From a virus, in IMG/VR virus record IMGVR_UViG_3300046010_001998, positions 1-28,332 of that record: DNA of 28,332 nt; one strand, written 5' to 3'. The position numbers and the translations under genes are program-made. Positions 14,049 to 27,752 of the stretch are shown here, one piece after another (within the stretch, counting starts at the first letter, position 1; the number at the start of each line of letters is the position of its first letter). A model generated the notes under the pieces. The model worked only from the letters and a program-made list of their open reading frames with translations, was not told the origin of the DNA and searched no databases.

Positions 14049-14957
14049 TCAAGCACCCGGCGTGCCGAATACACAGCGCCAGTCCGAGACCCCGAAGCTA
14101 TAACGCTCACGGGCCTTGAAGCGCATGTTACCGGTGTCAAAATCTCCTTCCATGCCGGTCTTGATCGGCGAACGGTTGAAGTATTTGAAACCATTCGGTG
14201 CGTCAGTCTTGATGAAGTACGCGTCCGTATCAGTGAGGAAGTGGTTTACCACAGCCCCTTGCGGAAGCATACCCATCGAACGCATGGCGTTCGTGTCGTT
14301 GTCTGCCGTGCCCGGACGCAGGTTCGAGTTAAGCACTCGCTCTGCGATGAACTGAAGCTCTTTCGGAATAATGAGCTTCATGCCGCGAACAGCAATCTTC
14401 AGACCACGCTCATCCGTCAGACCTGCGATGTCAATCAGCATCTGCTCCAGCGAGGTCTCGTTGAGATCCGCGGCGGTAGCCAGAAGGTTGGTCTGATTGC
14501 CAGTAAGGCTGGGATGCGCGTTCGAGCAAAGCGCGGCACCGTCGCCAATCGCATAGGCTCCCGTGCTGAACGCGTTGTTCAGAATGGAAGCTGCTTTGAT
14601 TTGCTTGGTCTGCGCCATCGAACGAGCCAGCGCCTTCGTGTACCGAGAAGCCAGACGATCATAAAGATTGTCTTCGATAGCTTCTTCCGTGATAGAAAAC
14701 GCCAGAGCGATGGTTTCGTGGGTGTAACGAGCGGTGTACGTCTCTTGAGCGTCGTCAAACGTGATGGCACCGCCTTCACTCTTGACCGGAGCTGTCGAGA
14801 AGCCCGCAAGCATTACTTCTTCTTCAAAGGCACGGTCCGAAGACTCCTCATCGAAGATTTCAGAATGCTCGTTCTCGTAACGGTTGTATTCAAGCCCGAA
14901 CAAGGCATTTAGGCCGGGTTCAAGCTCCTTCGCTAGTTGCGCGCGAGAGATAGCCAT
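14049..14957 (-). CDS. Major capsid protein, HK97 fold (Mu gpT-like)
   Basis: The 302-residue protein has an acidic helical N-terminal arm (LEPGLNALFGLEYNRYENEHSEIF; residues about 10-45). The central pattern TARYTHETIALAFSITEEAIED, then LYDRLASRYTKALARSMAQTKQ, is typical of Mu gpT-type HK97-fold capsid proteins. After the A-domain-like region (LIIPKELQFIAERVLNSNLRPG) it closes with a P-domain strand set (RFKARERYSFGVSDWRCVFG). The ribosome binding site is near perfect, AAGGAGG, and two hairpins follow the gene, both consistent with very high expression. The N-terminal arm is not obviously a cleaved scaffold domain, since a separate scaffold gene lies upstream. The scaffold, co-chaperonin and terminase neighbours support the call. 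Confidence 0.88.
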   Translation of the reverse strand: MAISRAQLAKELEPGLNALFGLEYNRYENEHSEIFDEESSDRAFEEEVMLAGFSTAPVKSEGGAITFDDAQETYTARYTHETIALAFSITEEAIEDNLYDRLASRYTKALARSMAQTKQIKAASILNNAFSTGAYAIGDGAALCSNAHPSLTGNQTNLLATAADLNETSLEQMLIDIAGLTDERGLKIAVRGMKLIIPKELQFIAERVLNSNLRPGTADNDTNAMRSMGMLPQGAVVNHFLTDTDAYFIKTDAPNGFKYFNRSPIKTGMEGDFDTGNMRFKARERYSFGVSDWRCVFGTPGA

Positions 14958-15615: not shown

Positions 15616-15641
15616 AATAGTTCTCTCCTATTTAAGCAGCC

Positions 15642-16130
15642 CTAGTTGCGAGGACCGCCGAAGGTTACACGAGATTGACGATCAGCATTGCCAATCCTCA
15701 TAGTTGAGTGTGCGTTCTCGCGCATCATGTCCGAATCAATTGCGTTCATCTGGTCTCTACTTCTTTGATTGAAGTATTGCGTGCGTTCAGCAACTGTTTC
15801 GTCAGGGATACGAGCGAGAAGCAAGCCGCCCACTCCAAACACACCTTCATATTTACCTGAATCAATAGTAGGCGCTTCAAAGTCGGGGTATTCGTCCTTA
15901 CGGACCAGTTCCCAACCTTCACGCATCTTGGCGCTGACGTTCTTCCGATCATCAAATCCACGGGTTTCCGCACGGATCCAACGATGCTTAAAGCCGTCAG
16001 GGGCAGGCGGTGCATCCAGCATAGACGGGGGAGCCCAAGGCTTACGAATAGCCTGCTTCTCCCTAGTTTGGGTAGCGCGAGCAGTCCGATTGATGCTCGA
16101 ACCACCGATTTGGTTTTCTTGTTCGCTCAT
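15642..16130 (-). CDS. Conserved head-region protein, unknown
   Basis: The 162-residue protein has a disordered basic N-terminus (residues 1-40). A core with FKHRWIRAETRGFDDRKNVS, then MREGWELVRKDEYPDF, follows, then a Gly-rich segment (YEGVFGVGGLLLARIPDETV), and it ends in a helical polar tail. Proteins of this shape are commonly found between scaffold and capsid genes in environmental podoviruses and lack a defined role. No protease catalytic residues are visible. It starts three bases after the scaffold stop. An assembly or internal head role is plausible. Confidence 0.72.
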   Translation of the reverse strand: MSEQENQIGGSSINRTARATQTREKQAIRKPWAPPSMLDAPPAPDGFKHRWIRAETRGFDDRKNVSAKMREGWELVRKDEYPDFEAPTIDSGKYEGVFGVGGLLLARIPDETVAERTQYFNQRSRDQMNAIDSDMMRENAHSTMRIGNADRQSRVTFGGPRN

Positions 16131-17464: not shown

Positions 17465-17654
17465 TTGATCGCTCCTGTTTTTCTAGCAGGCTCTTGAGTT
17501 CCTGTTCCACGTGATTAAGGCACTCTAAGTTGCCCATAAGCTCACGATAATGCTCCATCGACTTCACGTTCCCATTCCGCATGTAGTCGACACAGCCTTG
17601 GCGACGGTCTCGCAAAATGCGAAACACGGCCTCAGCAATCCTTATTTCATCCAC
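17457..17654 (-). CDS. Small helical protein, unknown
   Basis: The 65-residue product is one or two charged helices (IRIAEAVFRILRDRRQGCVD; MEHYRELMGNLECLNHVEQE), without membrane or metal-binding features. It overlaps the co-chaperonin gene by eight bases and follows the lysozyme gene after a 79-base gap. Short proteins of this type between lysozyme and chaperonin genes are known in environmental phages only as hypothetical proteins. AAGG in its leader supports the ATG. Function unknown. Confidence 0.72.
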   Translation of the reverse strand: MDEIRIAEAVFRILRDRRQGCVDYMRNGNVKSMEHYRELMGNLECLNHVEQELKSLLEKQERSID

Positions 17655-20119: not shown

Positions 20120-20287
20120 TTAGCAACCCATGTATTTCGTCCCCTTAAGCGCCGCTCCACCACCCCGACACGTCCTACGCGTCATCTTGTCGCCCGCCAT
20201 AGGAGCTGACTTGAGACCGCCAATCTTGACGGCTTGCGGGGTGCTACGAGGAGCCGACCCATTTACCTTAACTTTTCCGCCTTTCAT
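20120..20287 (-). CDS. Tiny basic protein after the portal
   Basis: The 55-residue protein opens [18 protein letters not shown] and closes with [18 protein letters not shown]. It is strongly basic and Gly-rich, with two cysteines. Its ATG overlaps the portal stop (ATGA), and the next gene's ATG follows three bases after its TAA, so the reading frame is well bracketed despite its size. Small basic proteins ending in a 'RGGGAA..GTK' motif occur next to portal genes in environmental podoviruses. The role is unknown; DNA or portal contact is plausible. Confidence 0.78.
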
Positions 20288-22779
20288 TGAGGGAACCCTC
20301 CGTTACGTTGCTTGATTAGCTCACGCTGCATCGCAGAATCAATCCGGGCCGCCGTCTGGCGCTCTTGCGAAGCCAACCGTTCTTCAAACTGCTTCGCCCG
20401 CATCTGCAAGTTCTGCTGATCCAATTGTACCTTGGACTGATCAATCTGATTATCCGCCTGATCCGATTGCGCTTTAAGCTGCAGTTCCTGCTCCTTGAGC
20501 TGAACCAACGGATCGGGACCACCCGCTCCACTAAGCTGACCAGAAAGATCCTTGACCTGCTGCATCCCTTCAGCCACAAGCTGCGCCGTAAGCTGTTCAA
20601 TCTGCAGCATCTGCTCATCGTCCGCCGGACGACCACCGCTCTGTTGAACCTGCTGCAAATACTGCACCGCCGCTTGTTCGCGTGCCGCAATCTGAATGTG
20701 CTCCATGACGTGCTTCTGCAAAGCAATCGCCAACGGAGGCATCTGACCCACCATCTGACTCGCCCCAAAAACCAAATGCGCCATGATGTGCGCTTGATGG
20801 TTCTGCCCTTGAAAAGCCTTCAAAGGCAACATGTCCAACGCGTTGATGTTCTCCTGCGCCGGATCCAACGGCTCCGGAGTCTGCGCCGGAACCGCTTTCA
20901 TCAACCGATCTACGTCCGTAACCCCCAACGCCTCGTACATGTCACGAAACACTTCGTGCAGGTTGTGAAGCTCCGGGGCCTGCGACGCAAGCTGCAACTT
21001 AGTCTGTGCCAGCATAATCCGCTGAGACTGACTAAAAATGTTCGGATTGCTGACCGGAATCACGTCCACCCGATCATCGAAATCCGCCGCCATGATCGTC
21101 TGATCACCGCCCGGAACCGAGTACGGATACTCCTGCGGCAAACTCTCCGCCATCACGCGCGCCAGAATCTTGAACTCTTGCCGCATCGCATAGTGCAGGC
21201 GCTTATGCACCGCACTCATGACCCGCGAGCCCTGTTCCATCATCGCAATCGTCGTGCCTACCGCCGCTTGCTGATTCCCGTCCCCTACCTTGAGGTCCGT
21301 AATCGTCGCAAACCGCTGACCCGCCTGTACCACAAAACCCAACAAATTAAACAACGTCTGATCCGGTCCCTTGAACGGCAACGGCATCAAACTGTCGCGA
21401 ATCGCACCCCCGGGCGCATCCACGTCCCGGAACTCCCCGGGCTGCAAAGGATCATCGTCGTCCCTGATCCGTAGGCCGCGGGCCTTGAATCCCGCCGGAA
21501 GGTTCGACAACGTGCCCGCATCAATCAACTGCCGCAGCGCAGAAGTCGCGGTCCGCGACAACCCGCCAATCGTGTGAATCAGACCCAAACCGTAGAAGCC
21601 AAATCCCGGCAGGAATTTGTAATGCGTAAAGTATTGGATCTTCTTGCGAAGCTTGTCGTCTTCGCGATAGTTGCGACGAATCGACAATACCTGACCGTTG
21701 TCCTCGGACAACGTGACAATGTACGGAATCCGAATCCCCGTCGGCTCCCCGTCCTCGTCTAAATCCTCGTAACCTTCCAGATCCAAATCGACATGGCACT
21801 CCAGAATGGTGCAATCATAGTCAATCTGACTCGGCTCCAACCCGTCGATCTGGTTGATCTTCTCCTCGATCTCGGTCAAATCCTTCTGCGAAGGAAGTAC
21901 CGGAACATCCAGATACACCCCAGCAAGCTGCCGCTTACGCAAATCGTTAACCGACATCCGAACAACCTGCGTGATGTTCGGACACGTCTCCAAATCCGAA
22001 GTCTCATAAGGAACCACAAGGTTCTCAGCAGGAACAAACCGCGATACCGCACGGCCCAACGTCTCGTCGTAATACGTCTTCTTGAACGTGGATCCCGCCA
22101 GCGGCAGATAAAACAACATCTGATCCATGTCCGGCGTGTACTCTTCCATCACGTTCGTGATGTAGTAGTTCATGAAACTCTGTACACGCTGCGATTGCGC
22201 GAGCTTCTCCCGCGTCTCACGGCCCATGACCACCGTACGAACCGGACCACTCGGCGGAAGCAGTTCGTTAAACGCCTGCGCCTGAAATTGCGTCGCCGCT
22301 TCAGCCAAAAGCGGATGCGTTACGCCTGACGCCCCACGGAATGGCTGCGTACGCTCTTCGTACGTGAACCCCAGCAGCTCCAAACCACTCGCGTACGCGT
22401 CTTCCCATTCCTGACGGCTCGACTTGTTCGCGTCAAACTCGGACATCAACTCGCTGGCAATCCGACCCAACTCGCGGTCCGGAATCTCTTCCGCCAAATT
22501 GGCGTAAAAATCCTCGTTCTCCCCGCGCTTGTCAGACGGCTCAAAATCAATCTCTACCCCACCGTCTTCCGTGGGCGTAATCTCAATTTCCCCAACCCCA
22601 CGCGCGTCCACCATCGCCCGCACGTTGTTGCCGCCTTCCGGGAAATCAATCCCAAAGCCCGCGTCCCGCGAGCCGGGAAGCTCGACCTCCATTTCCGCCG
22701 CCAAATCGTCTTCGGAAAGTTGCGACGGAACGTTGCGCTCCATCAAACTGCCCTTGAACCCGTTACGAATCTCGGCCAT
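20284..22779 (-). CDS. Portal protein, P22-type
   Basis: The 831-residue protein has an acidic N-terminal arm and then the portal core. Typical stretches include NKSSRQEWEDAYASGLELLG, TQFQAQAFNELLPPSGPVRT, HYKFLPGFGFYGLGLIHTIG and NQQAAVGTTIAMMEQGSRVM. A long Gln-rich coiled coil (residues about 690-831) follows and would form the extended barrel seen in P22 portals. The dodecameric portal is the channel at one capsid vertex through which terminase packages DNA. Its length is close to, and somewhat above, the 725 residues of P22 gp1. AGGAGAG precedes the ATG at 22779; a TTG one codon earlier is less likely. It follows the ART-like gene by 27 bases. Confidence 0.88.
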   Translation of the reverse strand: MAEIRNGFKGSLMERNVPSQLSEDDLAAEMEVELPGSRDAGFGIDFPEGGNNVRAMVDARGVGEIEITPTEDGGVEIDFEPSDKRGENEDFYANLAEEIPDRELGRIASELMSEFDANKSSRQEWEDAYASGLELLGFTYEERTQPFRGASGVTHPLLAEAATQFQAQAFNELLPPSGPVRTVVMGRETREKLAQSQRVQSFMNYYITNVMEEYTPDMDQMLFYLPLAGSTFKKTYYDETLGRAVSRFVPAENLVVPYETSDLETCPNITQVVRMSVNDLRKRQLAGVYLDVPVLPSQKDLTEIEEKINQIDGLEPSQIDYDCTILECHVDLDLEGYEDLDEDGEPTGIRIPYIVTLSEDNGQVLSIRRNYREDDKLRKKIQYFTHYKFLPGFGFYGLGLIHTIGGLSRTATSALRQLIDAGTLSNLPAGFKARGLRIRDDDDPLQPGEFRDVDAPGGAIRDSLMPLPFKGPDQTLFNLLGFVVQAGQRFATITDLKVGDGNQQAAVGTTIAMMEQGSRVMSAVHKRLHYAMRQEFKILARVMAESLPQEYPYSVPGGDQTIMAADFDDRVDVIPVSNPNIFSQSQRIMLAQTKLQLASQAPELHNLHEVFRDMYEALGVTDVDRLMKAVPAQTPEPLDPAQENINALDMLPLKAFQGQNHQAHIMAHLVFGASQMVGQMPPLAIALQKHVMEHIQIAAREQAAVQYLQQVQQSGGRPADDEQMLQIEQLTAQLVAEGMQQVKDLSGQLSGAGGPDPLVQLKEQELQLKAQSDQADNQIDQSKVQLDQQNLQMRAKQFEERLASQERQTAARIDSAMQRELIKQRNGGFPQ

Positions 22780-22806
22780 CAAACTCTCCTAAATACGAAA
22801 AAGTCC

Positions 22807-24458: not shown

Positions 24459-25922
24459 TTAATAATACACCCGCAGCTTAACCGAATTCTCTTTCTCTTC
24501 CCAGTCGTCTGTCGGCAATTGAACAAAGTTACCTTGACGATAACGCATCAGCGCCTGCGTCATACTGTCCACCAAATCGTCATACTCCCCGTTCGGAAAC
24601 GCCGCTACCTCCTCAATCATCTCGTCCGCCCACGTCTCGTCGGGGGCCCAAACCATCCCCGCCTCAAATAACGGCGACACACTATGCACCCGCGATACCT
24701 TGTCGTTCCCACGACTCGGCGTAAAATTCACCACCGGAATCCCCATGTTCCTCAACTCATGTGTCAACGGCATCCCAGATGCCTTCGCCTCCACAATCAC
24801 CGTGTCCGGGGCCCAAAATTTGTAATTGTCCAACGCAATCGACTTCAACTCCGGAAAATCCCATCGCCCCTTCTTACAATCCAACAAAATTAAATTAGGA
24901 CCCGACCCACCCTCGTCCGGATAAAAAACACCCCACGTCGTAATCGCCGAATAGTCACTCGTCTCCCTCTTGGAAAACGCCGTGTCGTAACTCTGGATCA
25001 CATACTCCAACTGCGGAACCTTCTCCCGCATCCAACGACGCCACCACTCCCGCTTGATAATCGCACTCTCTTCACCCGTCGGATTCTGCTGGTACTGCGC
25101 ATTCCACTTCGATACCGGAATAGACGCGCGGACCGCGGTCAAATCCTCCAAGGACCAAAACTCCGGCCAACACGGCGTCCCATCCTCAAAAATAGCCGGT
25201 AACTCCACTACCTCCCACTGATCCGCCAAAGGATCCTTCGCCATCGCACGCAATAACTGACCCGTCATGTCCTTCTCAGACCAACGCGTCTGTACCAAAA
25301 CAATCGATCCCCCCGGCTGCAAACGCTGACGAGGGCCCCCCGTGTACCACTCCCACGCATCCTCAAAGCCCGAATTCGACATCGCCGTCTGCTCAGAATG
25401 CGGATCGTCAATAACAACCAAATCACCACCACGGCCCGCAAGGTTCGATCCCACCCCCACCGCGTAATACATCCCTCCCTTGTTCGTGTCCCAACGACCC
25501 GACGCCTTACTGTCCGCCGCCAGCTTCACCTCCGGAAAAATCTCTCCAAACTCCTCACTCTCAATCAAATTCTTTGTCTTCCTGCCAAAATTGACAGCCA
25601 ACTCCGTCGTGTGCGTCGCCTGAATGATCTTCATCCGCGGATTACGGCCCATCATCCACGCCGGAAACAAATACGACGCAAACTCACTCTTTGTGTGCCG
25701 CGGTGCCATGTTGATGATCAACCGCTTCAACTCACCATTTGCCACCCTTTCCAACTTATCAGCAATAATCTTGTGATGACGGCCCGCGATAAACTCCGGC
25801 CAAACCGTTTTTACGAACGTCAAAAAATTATTTCTGCACCGCTCATTTTTCTCCAACTGCGCTAATCGCAGCTCAAGCTTCAACTTTTTCTCTTCAAGCG
25901 CCAGAGCATCTACTGACTTCAT
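24459..25922 (-). CDS. terL: Terminase large subunit (packaging ATPase-nuclease)
   Basis: The 487-residue protein has an N-terminal helix (residues 1-30) and then a conserved NNFLTFVKTVWPEFIAGRHH segment. A Walker A-like loop APRHTKSE lies at 73-80 and Walker B DLVVIDDP at 167-174, together with a coupling-type VQTRWSEKD at 210-218. The RNase H-like nuclease follows: QSYDTAFSK (Asp313), VIVEAKASG (Glu378) and DDLVDSMTQA (Asp448/449 and Asp452). It cuts and pumps phage DNA into the prohead through the portal. The Walker A has Thr in the position where GKS/T-type loops usually have Gly. I use the ATG at 25922 because upstream sequence in frame is GC-rich and non-conserved. No small terminase gene is recognised in the window. 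Confidence 0.93.
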   Translation of the reverse strand: MKSVDALALEEKKLKLELRLAQLEKNERCRNNFLTFVKTVWPEFIAGRHHKIIADKLERVANGELKRLIINMAPRHTKSEFASYLFPAWMMGRNPRMKIIQATHTTELAVNFGRKTKNLIESEEFGEIFPEVKLAADSKASGRWDTNKGGMYYAVGVGSNLAGRGGDLVVIDDPHSEQTAMSNSGFEDAWEWYTGGPRQRLQPGGSIVLVQTRWSEKDMTGQLLRAMAKDPLADQWEVVELPAIFEDGTPCWPEFWSLEDLTAVRASIPVSKWNAQYQQNPTGEESAIIKREWWRRWMREKVPQLEYVIQSYDTAFSKRETSDYSAITTWGVFYPDEGGSGPNLILLDCKKGRWDFPELKSIALDNYKFWAPDTVIVEAKASGMPLTHELRNMGIPVVNFTPSRGNDKVSRVHSVSPLFEAGMVWAPDETWADEMIEEVAAFPNGEYDDLVDSMTQALMRYRQGNFVQLPTDDWEEKENSVKLRVYY

Positions 25923-25964
25923 CGGGGGCCCCTGCAAAGGTTCCAGAAGGATTGTTACACGGCA

Positions 25965-25980
25965 TGTTCCACGTGGAACA
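25965..25980. promoter_or_regulatory. parS-like 16-bp palindrome upstream of terL
   Basis: TGTTCCACGTGGAACA is a perfect palindrome lying 42 bases before the terL ATG and downstream of the candidate promoter. The sequence has the core GTTCCACGTGGAAC of chromosomal parS sites in pseudomonads and differs from the common TGTTTCACGTGAAACA form by one symmetric pair. ParB binds and loads at such sites. I see no ParA or ParB gene here, so host ParB would be the expected ligand. Function is inferred. Confidence 0.7.
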
Positions 25981-25998
25981 CGGCTCACGGTATATGCG

Positions 25999-26026
25999 AT
26001 TTTAGCAGCATTTATAAGACAGTGAA
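25999..26026 (-). promoter_or_regulatory. Candidate terL / late promoter
   Basis: On the minus strand TTCACT, a 16-base spacer and TAAAAT form a sigma70-like -35 and -10 pair. The predicted start lies near 25992, so the parS-like palindrome would fall at about +12 to +27 in the 5' leader. It is the only good promoter in the AT-richer part of this gap. Confidence 0.5.
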
Positions 26027-26066
26027 CGGCGGTCCGTTTTTCTATGTAAATGTTTGCGAAAAACAT

Positions 26067-26345
26067 GGCCCTAGCCCCCGTGCACCCGCGCCGGGGGCGC
26101 GGCGCGCGGCGCGCGCGGCGCGATCCGAGGGCCCGCGATCTGACCCGATCGCCGGGGGACCCGGGCCGCCCGGCCCGGACCGGCGGCCTCGGACCGCGAG
26201 CCGTCGCGTCCGAACATCGTCCAGGCATCGCACCGGATCCCACGAATCCGCACCGGATCACACGGCCCTCGGACCACGGACCACGGCCACGGACCACGGT
26301 GGCGGCAGGCGGTAGGTTTAGCCGGTAGATCGAGCGCGGGGCGCG
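26067..26345. other. Very GC-rich non-coding block
   Basis: This stretch is strikingly GC-rich. It contains runs of GGCGCGC, a palindrome CCGGGCCG-CC-CGGCCCGG (26161-26178), two CACCGGATC words, and repeated GGACCAC units near 26269-26299. Open frames cross it on both strands but read Arg/Pro/Gly-rich and are not credible genes. It lies between the terminator of the coiled-coil gene and terL, where packaging or origin sites are often found. No function is shown. Confidence 0.55.
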
Positions 26346-26361: not shown

Positions 26362-26391
26362 CAAAAAAAAAGCGCGCCCGAGGGCGCGCTT
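26362..26391 (-). terminator. Terminator of the coiled-coil gene
   Basis: On the minus strand AAGCGCGCC, a CTCG loop and GGCGCGCTT form nine pairs and are followed by at least eight T residues. It is one of three nearly identical terminators in the right block. Confidence 0.88.
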
Positions 26392-26896: not shown

Positions 26897-26923
26897 AAAA
26901 AAAAGCGCGCCGGAGGCGCGCTT
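26897..26923 (-). terminator. Terminator of the cysteine-rich gene
   Basis: On the minus strand AAGCGCGCC, a three-base loop (TCC) and GGCGCGCTT form a nine-pair stem, followed by a run of T. It begins about 20 bases after the stop codon and precedes cassette A. Confidence 0.88.
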
Positions 26924-26942
26924 GCGGGGCGGGCGGGCGGGA

Positions 26943-27725: not shown

Positions 27726-27752
27726 AAAAAAAAGCGCGCCCGAGGCGCGCTT
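27726..27752 (-). terminator. Terminator of the DnaN-like gene
   Basis: On the minus strand AAGCGCGCC, a TCG loop and GGCGCGCTT form nine pairs followed by a T-tract. It lies about 23 bases after the stop codon and just before cassette B. Confidence 0.88.

Follow-up and report, generated by a model that had tools for sequence, protein, structure and literature searches.

A predicted host-type parS site at the head of the apparent late operon of HTVC023P-like phages

Introduction

Why should a phage carry, in the leader of its terminase large subunit gene (terL), what reads as a bacterial chromosomal parS site, and whose ParB would act on it? The question is raised by a 28,332-base virus record (hereafter the window, meaning that whole stretch of DNA), in which an initial annotation, made from the letters, had picked out a palindrome ahead of terL and proposed that host ParB is recruited there. 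Few DNA sites are conserved as widely among bacteria as parS, and the CTP switch of ParB has been well studied. The chromosomal consensus is TGTTTCACGTGAAACA (Livny et al. 2007, cited in PMC10197239), and it is established, as described in PMC12704722, that ParB-CTP loads at parS and slides. A literature search of sources other than bioRxiv and most subscription journals returned no paper on host-type parS in phages that lack ParB.

Results

Read directly from the window, TGTTCCACGTGGAACA proved to be, as first described, a perfect palindrome of 16 bp in the non-coding leader of terL, lying upstream of the terL start at a distance of 42 bp. The features of the locus are these:

25965..25980, no strand: parS palindrome TGTTCCACGTGGAACA, by sequence match; among the 76 evaluable relatives (best 80 by TerL), 44 have a parS ahead of terL, with 12 of 16 columns invariant
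24459..25922, minus strand: terL, terminase large subunit, 487 aa, first gene 3' of the parS-bearing leader (phrog_38, E 5.3e-110)
20284..22782, minus strand: portal protein gene of the presumed late operon, downstream of terL (phrog_1216, E 2.7e-55)
14049..14957, minus strand: major head protein gene, downstream (phrog_371, E 3.7e-22)
25999..26026, minus strand: predicted sigma-70-like promoter of terL and the late operon, TTCACT-16-TAAAAT, with TG before the second hexamer (promoter prediction)
26047..26071, minus strand: conserved box GGGCCATGTTTTTCGCAAACATTTA, one copy in the window (1 match against a mean of 0.00 in shuffles)
25925..25932, no strand: palindrome GGGGCCCC at the ribosome-binding position directly before the terL ATG, by sequence

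A GroES-like gene (phrog_3188) also lies on the terL strand, and the shared orientation of the terL, portal, GroES-like and major head genes indicates that the leader heads an apparent late operon. The box, 25 bp long, is upstream of the terL promoter on the minus strand, and a predicted transcription start near 25992 places the palindrome at about +13 to +28, in agreement with the spacing originally suggested. Elements resembling this promoter could be read in many relatives, the promoter being called in only part of them. To judge from the sequence, box, sigma-70-like promoter, parS and leader make up a compact cis module heading the terL-portal-capsid operon. In many relatives GGGGCCCC or GGGTCCCC was also seen, by eye, over the ribosome-binding position before the terL start.

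The palindrome matches TGTTNCACGTGNAACA exactly over its 16 bp, as a chromosomal-type parS should. It occurs once in the window; a search allowing 3 mismatches adds a single site, at 2750 and with all 3 of them, and these two matches compare with a mean of 0.11 over 100 shuffles. The CACGTG at 17508, near the GroES-like gene, was rejected as a parS, its best match having 3 mismatches and a similar in-frame stretch recurring in relatives.

Relatives were taken as the best 80 IMG/VR loci by TerL search alone (82-100% identity), and their kinship inflates all of the conservation counts that follow. Upstream of terL, 41 loci carry an exact parS and 3 carry one with a single mismatch, while 32 have none and 4 have no upstream DNA, so that the parS-bearing share of evaluable relatives is 44/76. 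All 51 exact leader sites are symmetric, positions 5 and 12 having been swapped together in every one; among the one-mismatch sites two of the three (L021 and L029) are asymmetric. When 50 sites with at most one mismatch from 40 loci were aligned (four loci with a site near -1040 were left out), 12 of 16 columns were invariant, two stood at 96-98%, and positions 5 and 12 divided 70:30. The flanks drift, with most flanking columns below 1 bit and two slightly above, and elsewhere in 675,157 bases there is just one further site at up to one mismatch. Freedom at positions 5 and 12 with the remaining positions near-invariant is the constraint expected of parS, and by sequence and conservation together the window palindrome is a host-type parS. 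The initial annotation had called it parS and had asked for this comparison of related contigs against the flanks; it had also cautioned that an arbitrary 16-bp palindrome may arise by chance, and that caution is answered by the conservation of parS ahead of terL.

The site is far from universal in the group. Loci of low G+C seldom carry a leader parS (1/7 below 43% G+C against 43/69 above, best 80 by TerL). When the window and the loci found by TerL were placed together on a quick TerL tree, scored within a limit of 1.2 kb and with a near-match in Pelagibacter phage HTVC027P not counted, 47 have parS and 47 do not, which takes at least nine changes, three of them forced by well-supported branches. 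An earlier tree (62 with, 48 without, 15 changes) was set aside, since its counts were biased by loci chosen for carrying parS, and it had counted the HTVC027P near-match. The repeated changes make parS look like an optional module, transferred or lost more than once. The same follows from the box, which was found with at most 4 mismatches in 74/76 evaluable relatives, including all 32 without parS. Loss of the palindrome with its surroundings kept had been named at the outset as evidence against a ParB site, and it has occurred in part: 32/76 lack the palindrome and keep the box, which means that the site is dispensable in many relatives, and 44/76 have parS. Automatic calling gave a promoter in 10 of the 32 parS-less leaders.

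Several smaller features accompany the leader sites. Tandem parS pairs, 23-24 bp apart, occur in 10 loci (L004-L010, L012, L019, L025), and always join a CC/GG site to a TC/GA site, whichever of the two comes first (10/10 loci, from few lineages). Three loci (L056, L063, L067) have a second inverted repeat, TTGCCTAAT..ATTAGGCA, adjoining parS, which is there 43 bp from the box. The box itself (GGGCCATGTTTNTCNCAAATA), kept ahead of the terL promoter in leaders without parS as well, is a candidate activator site, pac site or origin element.

To what, then, is parS anchored? Of the 54 sites, 52 could be positioned relative to the box (L048 and L058 show none within the threshold), and 52/52 lie on its 3' side, 51 of them at 42-116 bp; L050 is the outlier in distance and its box call is doubtful. 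By the promoter calls, 9 sites lie upstream of the -35 element, 33 lie downstream and 10 could not be assigned. In four loci (L068, L069, L071, L079) about 950 bp of extra DNA separates the module from terL, and parS is still 43 bp from the box; this constancy makes parS part of the promoter module, tracking the box and not the terL start codon. The 5' side of the box was surveyed in 25 loci, of which 13 have 91-614 bp free of any ORF of at least 100 aa, 7 have an ORF reaching the box, and 5 have no ORF found upstream. Steps of 12 bp in the distance from -35 to parS (34, 46, 58, 70) were noticed and are not claimed, coming from few related lineages, and an idea that the site marks a GC-skew origin was dropped, there being no clear skew switch at parS in five longer relatives.

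With TerL identities of 63.5% to HTVC027P and 58.7% to DSL-LC04, the window phage is, by its terminase, HTVC023P-like. The core genes of this type include terminase, GroES, helicases and DNA polymerase, as described in PMC9599517; terminase and GroES (phrog_3188) were matched in the window, itself a fragment, and no helicase or DNA polymerase was seen among the 20 window ORFs scanned. G+C in the window (48-65% in 2-kb windows) greatly exceeds the 36% of the HTVC027P locus, which makes SAR11 an improbable host. The closest named phages have no convincing parS site. HTVC023P, 023Pt_psg01 and DSL-LC04 show no site at up to 2 mismatches, and an exact parS is absent from all nine further named records searched (CRP-901, CRP-902, CRP-810, MinM2, Pkon1, POR1, MW202675, MW202426 and HTVC027P). 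One-mismatch sites are present in HTVC027P, CRP-810 and MW202426, those of the latter two far from terL. The HTVC027P site, CGTTTCACGTGAAACA, was discounted as evidence of an isolate with parS because it forms part of a reading frame, translated there as ...AFHVKHP..., in a stretch that carries no gene annotation. That frame, at about 15640-15910 between gp31 and gp32 (L082), is nuclease-like by eye.

Which ParB might read the site was approached with profile searches of 21 related records, several of them, the window included, being fragments; 11 of the 21 have a leader parS, and control genomes gave matches with every profile. The ParB N domain (PF02195), the ParB HTH domain (PF17762), ParA (PF13614) and tyrosine integrase (PF00589) were each found in 0/21 of these records. 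Neither the ParB nor the ParA gene of a phage-encoded ParABS system was thus seen in this set, fragments among it, as the suggested look for parA and parB elsewhere had been meant to reveal, and with no ParB in these records the ParB of the host is the natural reader of a host-type site, as had been proposed. The phages are apparently virulent. Partition of a circular prophage, another of the early suggestions, is weakly supported: tyrosine integrase and ParA were found in none of the 21 records, and the HTVC023P-type phage HTVC027P is called lytic in PMC12753301, but an episomal state may occur.

Some hint of the host came from genome bins, in which 17 loci encoding relatives were located. 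The exact motif occurs in 7/9 bins, the phage itself being the match in G121 and one of the two sites in G117, and outside the phage it occurs in 6/9. ParB was found in 8/8 relative-holding bins examined and GTTNCACGTGNAAC in 8/8, with one match in one bin for the control; this count leaves out G122, the ninth bin, which has no exact motif. Chromosomal parS is usually found in the neighbourhood of mnmG. In two of the three Verrucomicrobiota bins with relatives (G119 and G121), the window's 14-bp core, GTTCCACGTGGAAC, lies inside mnmG, and in the third (G117) TGTTCCACGTGAAACA falls within a large frame that matched no family. Parsing the phage contigs in Verrucomicrobiota bins, two (L227, L236) bear parS and one (L229) is without the site. 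Because the binning of phage contigs from metagenomes is unreliable and mis-binning is possible, we take Verrucomicrobiota as a lead to the host only. A GKSR motif is present in all five main ParB frames that were read, out of eight (L288, L289, L290, L292, L295), the frame filter itself having required such a motif, and the arginine of GKSR is conserved in ParB, as described in PMC7383237.

Beyond these relatives, TGTTYCACGTGRAACA was found in at least 120 stretches of IMG/VR, against 21 and 21 for two control palindromes, the first of the same composition and the second with the same CACGTG core. The site lies outside ORFs of at least 100 aa in 62 of the 120 motif stretches listed against 1/21 for the first control, and mean ORF coverage is 0.82 in the listed stretches against 0.91 in that control. 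A TerL relative is on 26 of the 120 listed motif contigs, at least 3 of which were already in the TerL-found set. ParB was matched in 4 of 100 motif contigs examined (of at least 120; many contigs are short), 3 of these above the family cut-off. With many motif sites inside reading frames, a part of them may have no function, and bacterial contigs may be among those listed. For 46 parS loci that are not TerL relatives the flanking genes are of many families, the sole repeats shown being portal and GroES (4/80 proteins each). These come from four loci of more distant HTVC023P-like phages (L128, L138, L188, L192), in which a small frame (V-P/S-R-E-T) separating portal from GroES contains an exact parS. 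An additional parS lies ahead of terL on the L128 contig (G059), and the L138 contig (G069) has a second parS at about 38826. A distinct TerL group, at about 28-30% identity, includes three loci (L115, L168, L181) with 3-5 exact parS upstream of terL and one (L177) with a single site.

Discussion

That host ParB binds the leader parS we consider very probable, given the sequence of the site and its pattern of conservation. What the binding would achieve is less easily settled. Our preferred reading, which we hold with about as much belief as doubt, is that an orphan host-type parS loads host ParB at the head of the late operon and that control near the promoter is relieved by titration; promoter-proximal control is the preferred function, with DNA positioning as a close rival. 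ParB-CTP dimers of the host would load on the site and from there slide into promoter or leader DNA, where, while phage genomes are few, they would hinder late transcription. RNA polymerase setting out from the window promoter would run straight into ParB at about +13 to +28. Replication would then multiply parS and titrate the limited host ParB, and the late operon would be released as the phage copy number rises. The position of the site, together with the rise in copy number during infection, suggests such a titration timer; that ParB binds during infection, represses the operon and is titrated are steps that we infer. As an account of late-operon timing, the timer is a tentative idea that we would sooner doubt than accept. 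More tentative again is the extension that virulent marine phages use host ParB as a copy-number sensor and that orphan parS sites form a general, overlooked regulatory class.

Precedent for ParB acting on nearby genes is known in few species. In Pseudomonas aeruginosa, as described in PMC5521831, genes beside the intergenic parS3 and parS4 rise upon loss of parB or of parS, extra ParB represses both promoters if parS is intact, and substitutions in parS3 on a plasmid reporter are without effect when extra ParB is absent. For Bacillus subtilis and Streptococcus pneumoniae, genes near parS are described in PMC7022226 as unaffected. The late-transcription role put forward by the initial annotation is supported in part, because parS follows the conserved promoter-side box and not the terL start. 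Against the preferred reading stand the absence of parS from 32/76 evaluable relatives and from the closest named phages, and the four distant HTVC023P-like loci with an exact parS between portal and GroES. A site upstream of the -35 element in one group (9) and downstream in another (33) is also loosely placed for an operator.

The strongest rival holds that host ParB places or condenses phage DNA: ParB-parS on replicating genomes would engage ParA and SMC, positioning the genomes or disentangling concatemers before packaging, and the promoter side would simply offer non-coding space. The tolerance of ParB loading for position and the varying offsets of parS would suit it, as would the 3-5 exact sites upstream of terL in L115, L168 and L181, which recall chromosomal parS clusters, and the many other viral contigs with parS, mostly with no ParB found (4/100 examined, many being short fragments). 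Pure positioning would, however, not demand one side of the box, and the 52/52 placeable sites on the 3' side, with ORF-free DNA of 91-614 bp available on the 5' side in 13/25 loci, therefore count against it. We regard it as possible and rather unlikely.

The remaining alternatives are much weaker. Many phage copies might act as a decoy that soaks up host ParB and upsets segregation or division in the host as it is taken over; the conserved, host-type parS would suit this, and a high phage copy number late in infection is expected from phage biology. A decoy would, however, have no need to be placed with the late promoter, a leader offers few sites (one or two), and 32/76 evaluable relatives do without, so we think it improbable. 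Slightly less probable still is a role in packaging, in which the site would flag the starting point near terL and ParB would assist the handover, as the adjacency of palindrome, terL and a conserved single-copy box might suggest; in four loci, however, the module is about 1 kb from terL. A phage-encoded regulator other than ParB could be expected at a promoter-adjacent palindrome, a position typical of operators. Yet the palindrome agrees with parS in all 16 positions and in the single pair that varies freely, and, with ParB N-terminal and HTH domains each in 0/21 related records, such a regulator would need parS specificity from another fold; we give this very little credence. The least credible idea has the palindrome act in RNA, as a hairpin of the terL leader. 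In the leader RNA it folds as an 8-pair stem, which a paired C-G/T-A swap would preserve. The other stem and loop positions are, however, near-invariant, leader folding is no better than in shuffles (z -0.51), and of the 13 loci whose site is 42-43 bp away from the box, the 9 with a called promoter have that site upstream of it and hence outside the terL transcript.

How does a leader parS read by host ParB compare with known systems? Phage P1 carries a parABS cassette, and the cassettes of P1 and of extrachromosomal mycobacteriophages provide for prophage maintenance via phage-encoded Par proteins. These cassettes likewise put a centromere-like site on phage DNA (for the mycobacteriophages as described in PMC7157519), whereas ParA and ParB were each found in 0/21 of the related records here and the phages look virulent. 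The parS of chromosomal ParABS belongs to the same class of 16-bp palindrome, and the 14-bp core of the window recurs in mnmG of two Verrucomicrobiota bins; unlike it, the present site is phage-borne, single or double, set in a late-operon leader and accompanied by no parA or parB found in 21 records. The parS3 and parS4 sites of P. aeruginosa also stand beside promoters whose genes are held down by ParB (PMC5521831), but those are host genes on the host chromosome and the window site is on a phage. The ParB-family clamp KorB, which plasmid RK2 encodes and which works as a repressor (PMC11790492), offers a model for how a sliding clamp could silence a promoter from a nearby site; it is plasmid-encoded and has its own operator, unlike a phage parS with host ParB.

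If virulent phages indeed exploit parS without a ParB of their own, host ParB would count among the host factors of infection across many lineages, and chromosome segregation would be linked to phage late-gene timing or DNA organisation; if the copy-number sensor is real, ParB would be shared by the orphan parS elements of phages as their host factor. A DNA motif search would then reveal candidate ParB-dependent phages, and the optional distribution of parS among close relatives supplies natural pairs with and without the site.

Finally, three near-identical GCGCGCC/GGCGCGC stem-loops with A/T runs follow short genes in the window, at about 26363-26391, 26897-26924 and 27726-27752; the first was called a terminator by program and the other two were recognised by eye only.
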